Assembly (NCBI GenBank): GCA_009692425.1 | Contig: SHZF01000001.1 | Coordinates: 124,001-188,000, forward strand | Reading direction: 5' to 3' | Length of the DNA: 64,000 nt | Source of the DNA: Myxococcales bacterium | GTDB lineage: Bacteria; Myxococcota_A; UBA9042 | Shown: one piece after another, positions 43,440 to 52,430 of the stretch | Layout of the letters: each line of letters starts with the position of its first letter | Numbering within the stretch: the first letter of the stretch is position 1 | The notes under the pieces: model-generated | What the model saw: only the letters and a program-made list of their open reading frames with translations | Database searches by the model: none | Told to the model about the DNA's origin: nothing | Made by a program: the position numbers and the translations under genes

Positions 43440-45248
43440 CTAGCTGAAGTCCTTGTACATGACCTCGGTGATCCGGAACGCAGATTTCTCCAGGTCCCGC
43501 AGCGCACCCTGAATCTTGTTGAGGTCCGTCGTTTCCGACGCACGCCGGGCCCCCTCGAGGTCTGACCGGATCTGGTTCAGTTCGCCCTCGGTCAGGTAGT
43601 TCGCGGACTCAGCCAGCGACCGCTCCGTCGTGTACACCAGGCCCGTGATCCGGCGGCGCGCTTCCGACAACTCGACGTTCATCCGGTCGGCATCGACGTA
43701 CTGCTCCGCCTCGCTGAGGATGCGCTCGATCGCCGACTCGGTCAGCCCCGACGTTGCCCGTACGCGAATCTGCTGCTCGCGCTTCGTGCCGAGGTCGCGC
43801 GCGCTCACGGACAGGATGCCGTTGGCGTCGATCGAGAACGTCACCTCGATCTTCGGCACGCCGCGCAGGGCCGGTGGGATGCCGACGAGTTCGAAGCGCG
43901 CCAGGCTCGTGTTGTCCGTCGCCATCGGGCGTTCACCCTGCAGCACGTGGATGTTGACCAGCGGCTGGTAGTCCTCCGATGTCGTGAAGACTTCGGTCAC
44001 GCTGCACGGCACGGTGACGTTGCGAGGAATGAGCTTCGTGAACACGCCGCCCGCCGTCTCGATGCCGAGTGACAGCGGGTTGACATCGAGCAGCACGACC
44101 TCGCCCACGTCACCGGCCAGAATCGCGCCCTGGATCGCCGCACCGACCGCGACGGCCTCGTCCGGGTTCACGGTACGGTTCGGCTGCCGCCCGAAAAAAT
44201 CCGCAACGGCCTTCTGCACCAAAGGCATCTTCGTCATGCCGCCGACCAGCAGCACGTCGGTGATCTGGGCCGTCTGGATGCCCGCCGCCTCGATGGCATC
44301 CTTGCAGTGCATGATCGTCTGATCGACCAGATCTTGGGTCATCTGCTCCAGTTCGGTGCGCGTCAGCAGCCGGCGCAGGTGCTTGGGCCCCGTCGCGTCG
44401 GCGGTCAAGAACGGCAACGAAATTTCAGTTTCCTCGATCGTCGACAGTTCAATCTTGGCGCGTTCGGCGGCGTCCTTCAGGCGCTGCAAGGCGACCGGGT
44501 CGGCATGCAGGTCGATCGACGTGTCGTTGCGAAAGCCCTCGATGAAGGCGTCCACCAGGCGCGCATCGATGTCTTCGCCGCCCAGAAATGTGTCGCCGTG
44601 GGTCGCCTTGACCTGAAACACGCCGTTGGCGAACTCAAGCACCGAAATATCGAACGTGCCGCCACCCAAGTCGTACACCGCGATCGTGCCCGACTGTTCG
44701 GCGTTGATGCCATAGGCGAGCGCGGCCGCCGTGGGTTCGTTGATGATGCGCACCACGTTCAGACCCGCGAGCCGGCCGGCATCGCGCGTCGCCTGGCGCT
44801 GGCTGTCGTCGAAGTACGCGGGTACGGTGATGACCGCATCCTTGACGCTGGACTCGATGTATTCTTGGGCCGCGTCACGGAGTTGGCGCAGGATGAACGC
44901 GCCCACTTCCGGCGGCGTGTGGCGCTTGCCGTGCACCAACACGCAGGCGTCGCCGTTGTCGACGGCTCCGATCTTGAAAGGCGCCGTCATCTGCATGCGC
45001 TGGACTTCGGGCGACTTGAGCTTGCGCCCCATCATGCGCTTGGTCGCGAAGACCGTGTTCTGGGGATTCGCGACTGCCTGGCGCTTGGCGATGTTGCCAA
45101 CAAGGCGCTGCCCGTCGGGCGTAAAGGCGACCATCGATGGCGTGGTGCGCGACCCCTCGGAGTTGGGGATGACGTGCGCCACCCCACCCTCGTACATGCA
45201 CACGCACGAGTTCGTCGTTCCGAGATCGATACCGATGACCTTGTCCAT
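43440..45248 (-). CDS. dnaK: Hsp70 chaperone DnaK
   Basis: 602 residues. ATPase signatures VIGIDLGTTNSCV, AVYDLGGGTFDISVLE and VLLVGGMTKMPLV; substrate domain with QGERPMATDNTSLARFEL; helical lid reaching VMYKDFS. The long Ala/Gly-rich disordered tail with terminal EEV-type motif of standard DnaK is missing, hence the shorter length (usual ~635). With the coupled DnaJ and no grpE nearby it may be the housekeeping copy or an additional specialised Hsp70; sequence alone does not settle this. A possible promoter overlaps the end of the upstream wzc gene. Confidence 0.93.
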   Translation of the reverse strand: MDKVIGIDLGTTNSCVCMYEGGVAHVIPNSEGSRTTPSMVAFTPDGQRLVGNIAKRQAVANPQNTVFATKRMMGRKLKSPEVQRMQMTAPFKIGAVDNGDACVLVHGKRHTPPEVGAFILRQLRDAAQEYIESSVKDAVITVPAYFDDSQRQATRDAGRLAGLNVVRIINEPTAAALAYGINAEQSGTIAVYDLGGGTFDISVLEFANGVFQVKATHGDTFLGGEDIDARLVDAFIEGFRNDTSIDLHADPVALQRLKDAAERAKIELSTIEETEISLPFLTADATGPKHLRRLLTRTELEQMTQDLVDQTIMHCKDAIEAAGIQTAQITDVLLVGGMTKMPLVQKAVADFFGRQPNRTVNPDEAVAVGAAIQGAILAGDVGEVVLLDVNPLSLGIETAGGVFTKLIPRNVTVPCSVTEVFTTSEDYQPLVNIHVLQGERPMATDNTSLARFELVGIPPALRGVPKIEVTFSIDANGILSVSARDLGTKREQQIRVRATSGLTESAIERILSEAEQYVDADRMNVELSEARRRITGLVYTTERSLAESANYLTEGELNQIRSDLEGARRASETTDLNKIQGALRDLEKSAFRITEVMYKDFS

Positions 45249-45397: not shown

Positions 45398-45425
45398 ACT
45401 GTAGCGCTGGGGATGCGAGCGTCAA
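45398..45425 (-). promoter_or_regulatory. Possible dnaK promoter overlapping the wzc end
   Basis: Minus strand TTGACG (45425-45420), 16 nt, TACAGT (45403-45398): 5/6 and 4/6 matches. The leader then contains CACTC-AC-GAGTG (45302-45313), a short palindrome that is not a CIRCE element because the arms are 2, not 9, nt apart. Confidence 0.4.
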
Positions 45426-47725
45426 CTTCCGTCAGAATCTGAACTGCGCCGCACTTCGCCGTGCTCGTCGGCTTCCGTCCGGCGCCGGGCCGCCTCCTGG
45501 CGTTCCTTGTCGGGGTCTGCGGCGTAGCGATAGCGGTACTGCTTGCCGCGCCGGTAGCCCTTGCCGTAGTAGTACCCGTAGCCCGGTCCCCGTGTGGCCG
45601 TCCGCGACAGCACGATGCCCAAAATCGTCGCATTCACGCTGCGAAGAGAGTGTATCGCCTGGTCCACTTCTTCGCGCTTGGTCTTCTCGGAGTGGACGAC
45701 GACGACGACCCCATCGACGAGCGACGCGATCACGAGAGCATCCGACACGATCTCGACAGGCGGCGAATCGAACACCACCGTCTCGTAGCGCTCCTGCAAT
45801 TGCCGCAGCAGTTCCTTGAACCGATCGGTGTGCAGCACCTCGGCCGGATTCGGCGGCAGCGGCCCGCACGGCAGCACGTCGAGGCCGGGCACTTCGGTGC
45901 GCTGGACCAGATCGCCGATGTTCTGGTGGCCGAGGATGAAACTCGTCAGGCCGACCTCGTTCGAGACCCCAAAGATCTTGTGCATACGTGGCTTGCGCAG
46001 GTCGGTGTCGACGAGCACGCACTTGCCGGAGGACGATGTCAACGCGATGCCGATCGTCGTCGAGGTCGACGTCTTGCCCTCGCGCGGGTTGGCGCTCGTG
46101 ATCAGGAGCGTGCGCAGGGGCTTGTCGGGGCGCATGAAAAGCAGGTTCGTGCGCACCGACCGCGACGCTTCGGCCACACGCGAGTTCGGTCGGTAGTACG
46201 TGTAGAGGTCGCCCTTGCCCTCCGGCACCGGCGAACCGTCGGCTTCACTCGCGGGCAAGAACGTAGGAATTGCTCCAAGGTACGGAACCTTCAGGAAGTT
46301 CTCGACGTCGGCGCGGTCCTTGATCGTATTGTCGAGCATGTCGACGACGACCGTGACGGCCGAGCCGATCAGAACCGCGAGCAGGACGGCCAGCAACAAG
46401 CTCAAGCGCACGTTGGGGCGCACCGGCACGGTCGGCGTGACGGCGAGATCGAGCACGTTGACGTTGTTGACGCCGACTTCCTTCGTCAGGTCCGTTTCCG
46501 CCAACCGGCGCGCCACCTTCTCATAGAACATCTTGTCTTCGTCGGCTTTTGCGATCAGTTGCTCGTGGGCGATGCGCGTCAGCCGGATGTCGGCGTCTTC
46601 TTGCTGCGACGCCTTCAACTGCACCAGCAGGTCCGCCTCCTCCGCCACCGCGGCCTGATGGGTCTGCAGCGCCGCGTCGTATAGCGCGCGCACATGCTTG
46701 CTCGCCAGCGCGACGAGCTCCTGCATCTGGTGCGTCACGCTTTGCACCTTCGGGTGCTTCTCCAGGTAGGTGGCGCCCAATTCGCGGCGCTTCATCTCGA
46801 GTTCGAGGTAGGTCTGCTTCAAGCTGCCCACGAGGCCGTCGCGCATCACGCCGGGCGCCGACGCCGAAAAAATGTCGCGGCTGTGGCGCACGCGCTTGAG
46901 TTGCGCCACGTCCTGCTGGGTGCGCAATCGCGTCGCGTGCACCTCGCGTACCGTCCGGTTCAACGCCAGGATCTGGTCGTTGACGGCGAGCCGCCGGTTG
47001 TCCGACAGGTCGTTTTCCTTCTCGAACTTGAACAGGGCCTGGCGCGACTTCTGCCGCTTCTCCGCGAGGTCACGGTGGATCGCGCGCAGGTCGGCGTACG
47101 CGTCACGCACCACCCGGCGCTTCTGGTCGATGTTGCGATCCTTGTAGGCGGCCATGACCGCGTTGACCACGTCCTTCGCGAATTCTGGATCGCTGTCTTC
47201 GAACGAGACCTTGCCCACCATCTGCTCGTCGGGCAGTTCCGCGATCACGCGCCCGGCCAACATCCCGACAGGGTCTGCGTTCGCGATGATGCGTTCCTTC
47301 TCCGCACGCGTCAGCGGCTTGTCGACGTCGGCGATGCCGAGAAACCGCTCGTCGCGTGCCAGGCCCAAGCGGTTGACGACGATCGACGCCAGATCGCGCG
47401 ACACGAGAATCTGTGCTTGCGCCTGGTAGTAGGACCGGTTCGCGCCGTATCCACCGCCCCCCGAGCCCAGGTTGACCACCTCGCTTACGTCGGACAAAAC
47501 GCGCGGTGGGGACGAGTCGATGTAGACCGTGCCTGTCGCCCGGTACACGGGCTTCTGGTGGCGCACGACGACGATCGCCGCGATCATCACAGCCGCCGCC
47601 GTGAACAAGAACCACCACCGACGCAAGCTGAGGATTTCCAGCGCGCGCCGGACCAACGCTTCGACTTGAAGCGCTTCGTCTGCAGCCGGAGCCGGACCTT
47701 GCAGCAGGGGGCGGTCCGTGGTCAC
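45422..47725 (-). CDS. wzc: Wzc-type bacterial tyrosine kinase / polysaccharide co-polymerase
   Basis: 767 residues; GTG start overlapping the preceding stop. TM1 (WWFLFTAAAVMIAAIVVV), a large periplasmic coiled-coil loop (~55-430), TM2 (LSLLLAVLLAVLIGSAVTVVV), then a cytoplasmic BY-kinase: Walker A SANPREGKTSTST, Walker A' VLVDTDLRKP, Walker B VVFDSPPV, and a C-terminal Tyr cluster (YGYYYGKGYRRGKQYRYRY) for autophosphorylation. All three ATP motifs are present. It controls chain length and export of a Wzx/Wzy-type polysaccharide together with the neighbouring OPX protein; glycosyltransferases are not in the window. Confidence 0.93.
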   Translation of the reverse strand: MTTDRPLLQGPAPAADEALQVEALVRRALEILSLRRWWFLFTAAAVMIAAIVVVRHQKPVYRATGTVYIDSSPPRVLSDVSEVVNLGSGGGGYGANRSYYQAQAQILVSRDLASIVVNRLGLARDERFLGIADVDKPLTRAEKERIIANADPVGMLAGRVIAELPDEQMVGKVSFEDSDPEFAKDVVNAVMAAYKDRNIDQKRRVVRDAYADLRAIHRDLAEKRQKSRQALFKFEKENDLSDNRRLAVNDQILALNRTVREVHATRLRTQQDVAQLKRVRHSRDIFSASAPGVMRDGLVGSLKQTYLELEMKRRELGATYLEKHPKVQSVTHQMQELVALASKHVRALYDAALQTHQAAVAEEADLLVQLKASQQEDADIRLTRIAHEQLIAKADEDKMFYEKVARRLAETDLTKEVGVNNVNVLDLAVTPTVPVRPNVRLSLLLAVLLAVLIGSAVTVVVDMLDNTIKDRADVENFLKVPYLGAIPTFLPASEADGSPVPEGKGDLYTYYRPNSRVAEASRSVRTNLLFMRPDKPLRTLLITSANPREGKTSTSTTIGIALTSSSGKCVLVDTDLRKPRMHKIFGVSNEVGLTSFILGHQNIGDLVQRTEVPGLDVLPCGPLPPNPAEVLHTDRFKELLRQLQERYETVVFDSPPVEIVSDALVIASLVDGVVVVVHSEKTKREEVDQAIHSLRSVNATILGIVLSRTATRGPGYGYYYGKGYRRGKQYRYRYAADPDKERQEAARRRTEADEHGEVRRSSDSDGS

Positions 47726-48441
47726 AGCACGGTCTCCGGAATGTATACGATATCACCTGGTTGCAGCACGAAATTCGCGGCGAGGCCTTGCATGATCTTC
47801 TCGACGGGCACCGGAATGCGGCGCTGCCCCGATACATCGTTGCGCGTGACGATGGCAAAGTTTTTCTCTGCCAACGAGCCAAAGCCACCCGCCAGCGTGA
47901 CCGCTTCAACCACGGACATCTGATCGGTGAACGGAAAGCGCCCGGGCGCCTTCACTTCACCGAGTACGAAGACTTTTTTCGAGTTGAGCGTCTTGACCTG
48001 GGCGGTCACCGACGGATTGCGCAGGTAGCCCTGCGCCAGCTTCTGGCGCAGGGAGGCCGCCACCTGGGACGCCGCCAGGCCCTCGACCGTCACGGTCCCG
48101 ACGAGAGGGAAGTCAATCTGCCCGGACGGCGACACCAAGTAGTTGCCCGACATGCCCGTCTCGTCGTACACGCGCACTTCCAGTTCGTCGCCCGGGCCCA
48201 ACGCCGCCGACTGGACCGCTGCCCGCACGTCAGCCGGGGCGTCGGCGTAGGTTGTCGGCGCGATGCTGCTGCACGCCGTCGCGGTCACGGCCGCCACGCC
48301 AGCGACCACCGCGACGGCAATGCAGACGCCCCGACGGGCAGTTCGAACGCGATCGAAGATGTTTTGCACGCGGTCCTGGTTGTCCGGCTTGCTGCTACTG
48401 GCTGTCCGACACTTGGAGACTGACCGATCGAACCGATACAC
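47722..48441 (-). CDS. Short Wza-type polysaccharide export (OPX) lipoprotein
   Basis: 239 residues from a GTG (another GTG at 48369 is possible). Lipobox-like VTATAC near residue 57, then the PES domain (LGPGDELEVRVYDETGMSGNYLV) and a SLBB-type domain (VFVLGEVKAPGRFPF; VVEAVTLAGGF), ending QPGDIVYIPETVL. The second half of classical Wza, including the C-terminal helix that crosses the outer membrane, is absent. In Myxococcus such short OPX proteins work with a separate outer-membrane beta-barrel, and such a gene lies directly upstream here. Overlaps the wzc start (GTGA). Confidence 0.88.
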   Translation of the reverse strand: MYRFDRSVSKCRTASSSKPDNQDRVQNIFDRVRTARRGVCIAVAVVAGVAAVTATACSSIAPTTYADAPADVRAAVQSAALGPGDELEVRVYDETGMSGNYLVSPSGQIDFPLVGTVTVEGLAASQVAASLRQKLAQGYLRNPSVTAQVKTLNSKKVFVLGEVKAPGRFPFTDQMSVVEAVTLAGGFGSLAEKNFAIVTRNDVSGQRRIPVPVEKIMQGLAANFVLQPGDIVYIPETVL

Positions 48442-48482: not shown

Positions 48483-49916
48483 CTAGTACCGGACCACGGC
48501 GCTGGCATAGATCTCGTGGGCAAAGTAGCTGCCGGAGTCGACGATCGAGTTGCTGTTCGTCTTCAGGACCAGGGCAAACTTGCTGATGTTGCCGCGCAGC
48601 GCGTAGCCGGTTTCGATCCCGACCATGCGGCTCACTTCAAACACGGCCTTTGCGCTGCCTTCGAGCAGCTTGTCTTCACGGCGGCGGTCGGTTGCGCTGC
48701 CTTCGACGCTCGGCAGCGGCTTGAGGCTGTAGGGTGTGCCTGCGAGCAGGGACACCGCGTTGAAAGCGCCGGACATCGCGTACGTGAAGGCGAAGTTCAC
48801 CTCGATGTCCATGATGCTGCCCATGCGCTGGCGCAGTTGCGTGCCGATGCGATGCGTGTCCACGTAGTTGCCGAAGAATGCGTCGCGGAAATCGTGGGTA
48901 TAGCCAAACAACAGGCGCGTCGTCTCCGACGCCCGGACGCCAATCGACAGGCCGGCCAGAAAGCTGTTGTACGACTCGCCCACATCATGATTCGACAGGC
49001 CCCAGCCGGCGCCCACTTCAAGGCTGATGCGTTTCGTCAGGGCACCCGCCAAGCCGAGTTTGGCCCGGAACGGCTGCGAACTCGATGCGAGGCCGCGCTT
49101 CTCCAGGGTCTTGGCTGAATCGGTCAAATAGCTAAAATCCCAGCTGGAATCGAGCACGGCCGCCGTCTTGGGCAAAAAGCGCCACGATCCCGTCAAGCGC
49201 GTCCGGACCGCGTCGCGTTGACCGGCCGAGAAGTTGTCGAACCGGTCCATCGCGTAGGCCGCCATGAACGCGACATTCAACGGGCGCCGCTCGGGAATCT
49301 CGCCTGGGTGGAACTCGACACGCACGCCGGCCTCGTTCGCGTTGCTGTTCAGCGATTCCTTGGTGTCCCAGTTGTTTGCTCGCAGCGAACGGTTGAAGTT
49401 GTCGAACACGGAAAACGCCAACGCCTTGCGCGCGCCGAACGCCGCGTCGAGGTGGACGGCGCCGCCGACGCCCGTCTGCGCCGAGATCGATTCGACATCG
49501 GAGATGTAGATGCGGGCATCTAGGGAGGACTCGAAGGTGAACGCCACGTTGTTCGACGCGTCGTTGGACAGGGCCAGTTTCGGGACGACGCGCAAGGAGG
49601 TCGCAGGCCTGATGGACGCAATCGTCTCGTCGCCGGACACGTTGAACAGGTTCGTGTCGTGGTGCCCGGTCAAGTTGAGGCTCGGGTGCAAGGTGAAGTC
49701 GCCGCTGCGAATGCCGCGTTCCTTCGCCTGCGCCGGCAAGGTCATCGACGCGGGCTGGGCGGCCGCCATTGCCGGGGCCAGCAGCGCGGCCATGGCGACG
49801 GCCAACGCGGCGGGGGCCAGGTGCGTGCGCAAGTCGCGTCGTGTCCGCAGGTCCTGTCGTGGCCCGGCGCCAATCCGCCGGCAGGGGGTAGGCTGTAAAT
49901 TCTTCAAGTTGGCCAC
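48483..49916 (-). CDS. Outer-membrane beta-barrel of the polysaccharide operon (Wzp/EpsX-like)
   Basis: 477 residues. A long basic N terminus and signal peptide (LAVAMAALLAPAMAAAQ), then a wholly beta-rich protein with alternating strands (GDFTLHPSLNLTGHHDTNLF; RISLEVGAGWGLSNHDVG; TRLLFGYTHDFRDAFF) and an aromatic C terminus (YASAVVRY). It fits the 16-18-stranded barrels encoded beside Wzx/Wzy-type export genes in Myxococcus (EpsX/WzpX), proposed as the outer-membrane conduit. Position between the 234-aa protein and the short OPX gene supports that role. Strand count cannot be fixed by eye. Confidence 0.78.
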   Translation of the reverse strand: MANLKNLQPTPCRRIGAGPRQDLRTRRDLRTHLAPAALAVAMAALLAPAMAAAQPASMTLPAQAKERGIRSGDFTLHPSLNLTGHHDTNLFNVSGDETIASIRPATSLRVVPKLALSNDASNNVAFTFESSLDARIYISDVESISAQTGVGGAVHLDAAFGARKALAFSVFDNFNRSLRANNWDTKESLNSNANEAGVRVEFHPGEIPERRPLNVAFMAAYAMDRFDNFSAGQRDAVRTRLTGSWRFLPKTAAVLDSSWDFSYLTDSAKTLEKRGLASSSQPFRAKLGLAGALTKRISLEVGAGWGLSNHDVGESYNSFLAGLSIGVRASETTRLLFGYTHDFRDAFFGNYVDTHRIGTQLRQRMGSIMDIEVNFAFTYAMSGAFNAVSLLAGTPYSLKPLPSVEGSATDRRREDKLLEGSAKAVFEVSRMVGIETGYALRGNISKFALVLKTNSNSIVDSGSYFAHEIYASAVVRY

Positions 49917-50064: not shown

Positions 50065-50769
50065 CTAGCCCGGCTTCGATGCGTCCGTGGCGATGAATGG
50101 GCTGGCCGACGGCACGACCTCGAGCTTGGGCGCGAGATCGGTCAGGCCTTCGGTCGGATCGATCTCCGGCAAGTCGGGATCGATATTCTTCTCGATGTAC
50201 GGGCGACCGTCGATTGCGCCGTCGACCGATGGGCCGCCGCAGCCCTTTAGTTGCCCGTCGAGCTCTTCAGCCTTGTTGAAAGCAATGGAAATCTTCACGT
50301 ACTCGTGTTCCGTGCACTTGTCGTCCTTGCGGGACACGCATTCCTCCATCGCCAGGAAGTTGCTCTCAGCCAGTCGCATCAACCCCTTTATCGTCGTCAG
50401 GGCTTCGTTGACGCAATTCACGCGGGTGATGTTCTGCGACTTGCGCGCTTCTTCGAGTTCCGAGAACCCCGAAGCGACCATCTTGTGCATCCGGTCGATG
50501 TACGCCTTACCTTGTTCCACCTGCCGGCCCATGCCTGCGAGATCACCCGTCGCCGGTGGCTGGGCTCCCGTCTCTTCGGCGGCGACGCCGGCTGCGACGA
50601 TCAAGCAGAACCCGCCGACGGCAGCCGCAATCGCCTGCCGAATCACGTCGTTACGGCTCGCGGGCAGCAGGGCGCTCGTCTTGCTCGACACGCGCGGGTC
50701 GTGTTGCGGGGCGGATTCGACGTGCTGGTGGGGAGCTGTTCCGGTAGCGCTAGTGAAATCTTTTCGCAT
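50065..50769 (-). CDS. Membrane-anchored/secreted protein, first gene of polysaccharide operon
   Basis: 234 residues from the ATG at 50769 (AGGA at 5 nt); the track start at 50976 lies in the repeat-rich leader. A ~50-residue polar N terminus precedes a hydrophobic segment (AIAAAVGGFCLIVAAGVAA), then a helical region (QVEQGKAYIDRMHKMVASGF; NCVNEALTTIKGLMRLAESNF) with three to four Cys (NCVNE, EECVSRKDDKC, GCGG) and an acidic/Pro tail. I do not recognise the family. It is likely periplasmic and linked to the export complex by operon position (148 nt upstream of the barrel gene). Confidence 0.65.
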   Translation of the reverse strand: MRKDFTSATGTAPHQHVESAPQHDPRVSSKTSALLPASRNDVIRQAIAAAVGGFCLIVAAGVAAEETGAQPPATGDLAGMGRQVEQGKAYIDRMHKMVASGFSELEEARKSQNITRVNCVNEALTTIKGLMRLAESNFLAMEECVSRKDDKCTEHEYVKISIAFNKAEELDGQLKGCGGPSVDGAIDGRPYIEKNIDPDLPEIDPTEGLTDLAPKLEVVPSASPFIATDASKPG

Positions 50770-50992: not shown

Positions 50993-51070
50993 TTCCCAGT
51001 GCGCTGCGCGCGTCTTCGTTCCCAGTGCGCTGCGCGCGTCTTCGTTCCCAGTGCGCTGCGCGCGTCCTCG
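50993..51070. repeat. Three-copy 26-bp tandem repeat in polysaccharide leader
   Basis: TTCCCAGTGCGCTGCGCGCG-led units at 50993, 51019 and 51045; copies 1 and 2 identical, copy 3 with one T-to-C change. Unit length is not a multiple of three. It lies between the predicted transcription start (~51117, minus strand) and the first start codon. Confidence 0.9.
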
Positions 51071-51123
51071 TTCGGGGCATTGAGCCAAGTTCGGAGGAGC
51101 TTGCCGTGCCCAGAAGCGGCGCG

Positions 51124-51153
51124 AATTTAGTAGGCCGGCGGCCCGGATGTCAA
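51124..51153 (-). promoter_or_regulatory. Sigma70 promoter of the polysaccharide export operon
   Basis: Minus strand TTGACA (51153-51148), 18 nt, TAAATT (51129-51124). The -35 is perfect, the -10 4/6. It is placed ~350 nt upstream of the first operon gene with three palindromes immediately behind the -35. Confidence 0.65.
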
Positions 51154-51155
51154 CA

Positions 51156-51170
51156 GCGGGACCGTCCCGC
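51156..51170. promoter_or_regulatory. Perfect palindrome adjoining -35 (operator candidate 1)
   Basis: GCGGGAC-C-GTCCCGC, 7-bp arms, two bases behind the -35 box of the polysaccharide promoter. Confidence 0.6.
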
Positions 51171-51173
51171 GTT

Positions 51174-51239
51174 GGTTTCTGGCCTGCGGGACGGGCGTCC
51201 CTTCGCGGTTTCTGGCCTGCGGGACGGGCGTCCCGTCGT
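51174..51239. repeat. Two-copy 33-bp repeat carrying operator candidates 2 and 3
   Basis: GGTTTCTGGCCTGCGGGACG-led units at 51174 and 51207, nearly identical. Each contains the palindrome GGGACG-GG-CGTCCC (51188-51201 and 51221-51234), which shares the GGGAC/GTCCC half-sites with the palindrome next to the -35. Centres are ~31.5 and 33 bp apart, near three DNA turns. The whole gap 50770-51329 holds only these control elements. Confidence 0.8.
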
Positions 51240-51329
51240 GGAGTCTCGCCGCCGCAGTGCGTTAGCTTACAGGGTGCCGGCCGCCAAGCCCTCCGACGGG
51301 CTGTGTTGTCGAAAGGGGGCGGCGGTCGG

Positions 51330-52430
51330 TCAGGGCGTAGGTTGCCGAAATTCCGCCCCGGGATCAAAAAATCTCTCCGGCCATGGTTGCCACCGTACGA
51401 GCACGGGTGCGGCGTCGGCGGAGCGTGCCGGCCACCTCTCCGAACGGCGCGAACGGACCCGCACGAGGTCCGCTCCTTCCACATGCAAGACATCTCCCGG
51501 AGCCAGCCAAGCGTGCAAAGTGGCTGCAAACAGGGCCTGCGCCTGGCGGGCCGTCGGGTCGGGGAATCCGTTGACGAGAACCGCGGCGACGCGCAGCCCC
51601 CCTGGTTCCCACAGGCCGTCGATCGCGGCGAAAAACGGCAGCCGAAAGTACAGGACCGGGCGCTCTAGTTGGCGCTGGATTGCGGCAATCCGGACGCCAG
51701 ATTCGACCGCGGCCAGCGCCCCTGCCGCGGGTCGCGCCCGCTCCACCGCCCGCAGGCAGTCGAGGCGGCAAGGGTAGAAGCCGAGGAGTTCCGCATCCGC
51801 AAGTGGGTTGAGGGCGGGATGCCCTGCGCCGCCTGGGGCCACGGAGCGCAACAGGTCACGGCACGCGTCGTCGTTTACGGTGTCCTGATCCACGCGACTC
51901 GTGGCGGCGGCACGTGCAAATGCCTCGATGCAGCATGGCGGGAACCCGAGGAGCGCACCGGCTCCCGCCACATCGTCGCGTCGCGCGTTTTCGAGCGCCA
52001 GCAAGCGGCGGCCTGCGTCGTTGCGGCTGAGGTAGATCGACACGAGGCGCGGTGCGGCAGGGTCGTCTGGCTGGGCCGGCATCGACCGCAAGCGCAAATA
52101 ATCCTTGACGTAGGGTGGACCTACCACGATGCGGTAGTGCGATTGGAAGCGGGCGACGAAACGGCTGGCGCTCTCGACCGGGATGTCTTCGCACTTGACG
52201 ACTTCGCGTACGCCGGCAGCCATCTGGGCCAGTTCTGCCGGCTTGAAGCCGCGGTAGCTGAGGATTCCCGCGAGCCGGGCTGCCGCACTGGAGACCGCCT
52301 CGCTGGACGGCGGCGCCGGGAAGTCGAACCCGAGCGCGCCGCACAACCCCTCGTGTGCGGCAGCAAGGCGGCCGGCGCCGAGATCGGCGGTGAGCTTGGA
52401 GTACAGGTCGGCGAGGTGGTAGCGTTCCAT
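51330..52430 (-). CDS. DUF483-like protein
   Basis: 366 residues from the ATG at 52430 (MERYHLADLYSKL); an ATG at 52451 is also possible. No signal peptide or TM. The central segment RRLLALENARRDDVAGAGAL and GFPPCCIEAFARAAA resembles the DUF483 pattern of G-[YF]-P-x-C-C followed by an aromatic, and YPCRLDCLRAV adds two Cys, so a Cys-rich metal site is possible. The role is unknown. It is divergent from the UPF0158-like gene and its 3' end approaches the polysaccharide promoter region, from which it is separated by ~90 bp. Confidence 0.5.
   Translation of the reverse strand: MERYHLADLYSKLTADLGAGRLAAAHEGLCGALGFDFPAPPSSEAVSSAAARLAGILSYRGFKPAELAQMAAGVREVVKCEDIPVESASRFVARFQSHYRIVVGPPYVKDYLRLRSMPAQPDDPAAPRLVSIYLSRNDAGRRLLALENARRDDVAGAGALLGFPPCCIEAFARAAATSRVDQDTVNDDACRDLLRSVAPGGAGHPALNPLADAELLGFYPCRLDCLRAVERARPAAGALAAVESGVRIAAIQRQLERPVLYFRLPFFAAIDGLWEPGGLRVAAVLVNGFPDPTARQAQALFAATLHAWLAPGDVLHVEGADLVRVRSRRSERWPARSADAAPVLVRWQPWPERFFDPGAEFRQPTP

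Follow-up and report, generated by a model that had tools for sequence, protein, structure and literature searches.

The region upstream of a polysaccharide export operon in an uncultured myxobacterium raises the question of what switches this operon on. A preliminary description of the locus had proposed that three palindromes behind a minus-strand promoter form a cooperative, helically phased operator set for a dedicated regulator. Here, we have examined this proposal in a 64-kb window (the whole stretch of DNA that was analyzed, contig C132:124001-188000 within a 4.94-Mb assembly) and in relatives that carry the same operon. These relatives represent other genera of the same family and are mostly labelled as Myxococcales metagenome assemblies; a single search of named genomes for anything more closely related yielded only family members that were already known. 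Synteny of the operon was kept in all 17 same-family genomes examined, and the upstream comparisons used the 16 of them that had upstream sequence. One of the records (CAMDBH010000008.1) is titled as a Klebsiella pneumoniae MAG, yet it bears the myxobacterial export operon with 72% protein identity, and its label looks wrong.

All genes of the operon are located on the minus strand. The first one, orf4 (50065..50766), had no match in Pfam or NCBIfam, and its start codon is uncertain: ATG at 50766 is preceded by a good ribosome site, and GTG at 50646 is suggested by alignment with relatives. This gene accompanies the operon across the class with 27-42% identity and is a candidate for an unknown export component. 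It is followed by genes for an outer-membrane beta-barrel-like protein (48483..49916; weak match to Pfam BBP2_2, syntenic in relatives), an OPX polysaccharide export protein of 239 aa (47722..48441; Poly_export and SLBB domains) and a Wzc-type chain-length determinant with a tyrosine kinase (45422..47725). A DnaK-like gene (43440-45248) lies directly after Wzc and was also found after the operon in most relatives, including those outside the family. The palindromes and the promoter, hereafter P1, occupy the intergenic region between orf4 and a same-strand upstream gene that ends at 51330.

P1 (TTGACA-N18-TAAATT, 51153 to 51124, minus strand) proved to be as described. It was the sole promoter-like site in the region according to a promoter scan (10/12 matches, with 0.1 in shuffles), and it has the two elements of a housekeeping sigma-70 promoter, TTGACA and TANNNT, 16-18 nt apart. 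The corresponding pattern, TTGACA-N16-18-TANNNT, could be identified before the operon in each of the 16 relatives, with 0.02 expected from dinucleotide-preserving shuffles. Its assignment to the barrel/OPX/Wzc export operon was also supported, as the same operon followed downstream in all 16. Sequence conservation of this kind supports the view that P1 is a real, conserved and ordinary housekeeping promoter. In most relatives, a GCTT-like motif (51130-51115) was observed exactly 6 nt past the -10 of P1, close to where transcription would be expected to start.

The three palindromes with GGGAC/GTCCC half-sites were likewise present: a 15-mer, GCGGGAC-C-GTCCCGC (51156..51170), placed 2 bp from the -35 of P1, and two 14-mers, both GGGACGGGCGTCCC (51188..51201 and 51221..51234). 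The 14-mers coincide with the first and second junctions of a 33-bp tandem repeat (51163..51250; TRF score 123), which consists of two direct copies that are 85% identical (51163-51195 and 51196-51228) and a degenerate partial copy. The 15-mer is the same junction minus 3 bp (GGG), as can be seen by aligning GCGGGAC---CGTCCC with GCGGGACGGGCGTCCC, and one 33-bp spacing becomes 31.5 bp because of these missing bases. Thus, the centre spacings of 31.5 and 33 bp reported before are real, but they are built into the tandem repeat, so that helical phasing is no independent observation and needs no selection. In addition, the distance between half-site centres is 6 bp for the 15-mer versus 9 bp for the 14-mers; the three sites are therefore non-equivalent, and a single dimer could not bind all of them alike.

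We also measured the occurrence of the palindromes elsewhere. GGGAC-N4-GTCCC was found twice in the window versus 0.12 expected; however, both sites copy one repeat unit and should be counted as one event. Genome-wide, this pattern occurred at three places, two of which were at this locus (seven for the reversed control), and GGGAC/GTCCC with spacers of 1-6 nt occurred at seven places, three of which were at this locus (39 for the reversed control). A genome-wide pattern search found no second palindrome cluster, and the three other sites inspected lay within long open frames and had flanks that were not shared; on this basis, a palindrome regulon was rejected. The 33-bp unit was not found elsewhere in the genome at up to three mismatches, and a dispersed-repeat reading was discarded on the basis of this single locus. 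Among the 16 same-family relatives, none had a GGGAC-N0-8-GTCCC palindrome in the ∼1.1 kb of upstream sequence compared. The preliminary description had named absence of the palindromes from close relatives with the same operon as evidence against its proposal, and such absence was indeed observed, with the nearest relatives being other genera of the same family. An operator array should consist of equivalent sites that are conserved with their operon; here the half-site distances differ and the sites are missing from the relatives. The cooperative operator set is thus not supported. Judging from the sequence comparison, the palindromes most likely reflect a lineage-specific 33-bp tandem duplication rather than sites of a dedicated regulator, and in themselves they look ordinary.

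A different element, hereafter P2, was conserved further upstream. It was found here as TGATCCC-N13-GGCAACC (51366-51340, minus strand), a predicted ECF-sigma promoter that lies 213 bp upstream of the -35 of P1 and overlaps with the upstream gene at its end; its consensus is TGAWCC-N14-GGCAAC. Under a strict pattern, 14 of 16 relatives had TGA(A/T)C(C/T)-N14-GGCAAC, or a sequence close to it, at a distance of 92 to 318 bp upstream of the -35 of P1, and P2 was present within 700 nt in 13 of 16 versus 0.26 expected. As P2 was kept where the upstream gene differs, it is not merely coding sequence. Among class-level genomes outside the family, P1-like sites were observed in some, and P2 was clear in at most one. 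Summed over the family genomes, TGAWCCT-N13-GGCAAC had 44 matches versus 7 for the reversed control, and in several genera these matches included the region upstream of a gene for an ECF sigma factor. It should be noted that the TGAACC variant contains AAC, that the TGATCC variant, which is the one at the export operon here, does not, and that the -10 half, GGCAAC, differs from the classical ECF CGT. Promoter hallmarks of the AAC/CGT type were later dropped as defining for ECF factors (PMC8103513).

The ECF gene is located on another contig (C13), away from the export operon. A single copy was found in 19 of 22 family genomes (E 1e-30), and no copy was detectable in one operon-bearing genome that is 81% complete (G019). 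Its product of 207 aa has only sigma regions 2 and 4 (PF04542 and PF08281) and scored above the cut-off of TIGR02937. The gene adjoining it downstream encodes a FecR-domain protein, which is likely to be the anti-sigma factor of this ECF factor. The P2 element was present before the ECF gene itself in 17 of 18 genomes; in our own genome it reads TGACCCT-N13-GGCAACCTA and is followed after ∼40 nt by the ATG. ECF factors often have an anti-sigma gene as a neighbour and often show positive autoregulation; ∼55% of them are predicted to be autoregulated, and FecI-like systems are exceptions (PMC8103513, review). The best reading of the element before the ECF gene is that this factor may be autoregulated via P2.

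The relationship between the two loci was further analyzed by cross-tests with matrices. The P2 elements had first been picked by eye, which means that these tests are not fully blind, and the main control was our own genome, which was outside both training sets. A matrix trained on the operons of 11 relatives, with our own genome and all ECF genes left out, placed 51370(-) at the top of ∼128,000 window positions. With the same matrix, the best site of the ECF locus was the one immediately before the ECF gene in 17 of the 18 genomes that had upstream sequence, our own included. The exception was L111, in which the ECF site ranked third; the locus of L107 was interrupted by a contig end. In the reverse test, a matrix from the relatives' ECF genes alone again ranked 51370(-) first in the window (15.3 versus 8.5 for the next), and P2 was among the top two sites in 14 of 16 operon loci of relatives (7.5-11 kb). 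This matrix also found an extra site between barrel and OPX in five genomes of one genus. The second-best matrix matches in the window (30743+ and 12159-) lay within long open frames and were disregarded.

Several other explanations should be considered. With regard to the palindromes, a dimeric regulator gained only in this genus might bind them cooperatively on one DNA face beside P1. The presence of three GGGAC/GTCCC palindromes in 80 bp, with one of them 2 bp away from the -35 and no other cluster in the genome, would be in line with this, and the comparison with other genera leaves room for a genus-specific gain. Such restricted operators nevertheless seem rather unlikely considering that the palindromes are absent from 16 relatives, that their half-site spacing is unequal (6 versus 9 bp), that their phasing is a by-product of the tandem repeat and that additional sites as in a regulon are missing from the genome. 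Alternatively, the palindromes, which are self-complementary and lie downstream of both P2 and the upstream gene, might act as RNA hairpins that reduce read-through or stabilize RNA in transcripts from either. The sense strand, however, has no U tract, terminator-like sites there are on the plus strand only, folding was no better than that of shuffles (z -1.2), and the palindromes are not conserved in relatives; a hairpin or terminator role was rejected on account of the missing U tract and the unexceptional folding, and we regard it as very unlikely.

Another possibility is that P2 is no promoter and instead serves as a binding site for a conventional transcription factor, one that regulates the export operon as well as the ECF gene. 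A motif common to two loci indicates co-regulation and says nothing about the kind of protein, and the -10 half departs from the classical ECF CGT. On the other hand, P2 has two unlike halves at a near-constant distance, resembling -35/-10 pairs; its distance of ∼40 nt from the ECF start codon is compatible with a promoter; and sharing of the element with the ECF gene follows the usual pattern of autoregulation (PMC8103513). A transcription-factor site thus appears unlikely, and we infer that P2 is a promoter.

Considering these data together, the export operon probably has two conserved promoters, the housekeeping P1 and an ECF promoter, P2, that is shared with an autoregulated, FecR-partnered ECF gene. 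This suggests that the ECF sigma factor on contig C13 turns on exopolysaccharide (slime) export in this family of uncultured myxobacteria. An envelope or surface signal would free the ECF factor from its putative anti-sigma factor; the freed factor, which would recognize P2, could then amplify transcription of its own gene and add transcription of the export operon from P2 on top of a baseline from P1. The palindromes would simply sit between P2 and P1 with no role for a dedicated regulator. There is about an even chance that the ECF/FecR pair is a dedicated system throughout the family, sensing the cell surface and controlling both exopolysaccharide export and its own gene via an unusual TGAWCC/GGCAAC promoter, with a very small regulon of perhaps three sites in this genome.

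Comparison with known systems revealed both similarities and differences. In Pseudomonas aeruginosa, AlgU (sigma-22) acts on algD, an alginate operon. AlgU is likewise an ECF factor behind an exopolysaccharide pathway, that of alginate (PMC7641640). However, the sigma factor, the promoter sequence and the polysaccharide machinery (here Wzc/OPX/barrel) are different, and the partner is a FecR-domain protein here and MucA in the case of AlgU. In FecI/FecR cell-surface signalling, the ECF sigma gene is also directly followed by a FecR-domain gene; in contrast with FecI-like factors, which are exceptions to autoregulation (PMC8103513), the ECF gene on C13 itself carries the common P2 element. As for the export machinery, a barrel gene also adjoins a short OPX gene in Myxococcus xanthus (EpsX and EpsY, PMC9601211), again in an export operon of Myxococcota. 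The EpsX/EpsY-type composite translocon combines an 18-stranded barrel with an OPX protein that has no membrane-spanning domain. The likeness of our operon to this translocon is one of domain matches and gene order, and the OPX protein showed weak similarity to the NCBIfam EpsY model (75.6 bits, cut-off 320).

ECF control of exopolysaccharide is already known from AlgU and alginate, and it is the ECF factor, the promoter variant and the target in this family that appear to be new. A full-text search, with most subscription journals outside its coverage, found no paper joining ECF sigma factor, exopolysaccharide, Myxococcus and FecR. Our analysis shifts the lead from plausible but unsupported phased palindromes to the conserved P2 element, and it yields predictions of a regulator, of the promoter sequence that it would use and of a main target in a bacterial family that is known here from metagenome assemblies alone. 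It thereby becomes directly testable whether the ECF sigma factor is linked to polysaccharide export of the barrel/OPX type.

Some additional observations were made. In our own genome, three sites matched TGAWCCT-N13-GGCAACCTA with no more than one mismatch, namely those at the ECF gene and the export operon and one at C87:191. The last (C87:191-219), a candidate further regulon member, precedes by ∼70 nt what may be the start of a predicted secreted protein. In two relatives, P2-like matches were noticed before a sugar-nucleotide transferase-like gene (L069) and before a gene for a multi-span membrane protein resembling O-antigen ligase (L064), both judged by eye from the sequence. Finally, the untranslated leader of the operon contains a separate 26-bp tandem repeat of 3.1 copies (50993..51073). 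Leader repeats that are unrelated to each other were observed in three genomes, with units of 26 bp here, 24 bp in L040 (4614-4754) and 23 bp in L045 (5984-6056), and these were the only arrays with a TRF score above 120 in ∼171 kb of the relatives' loci.
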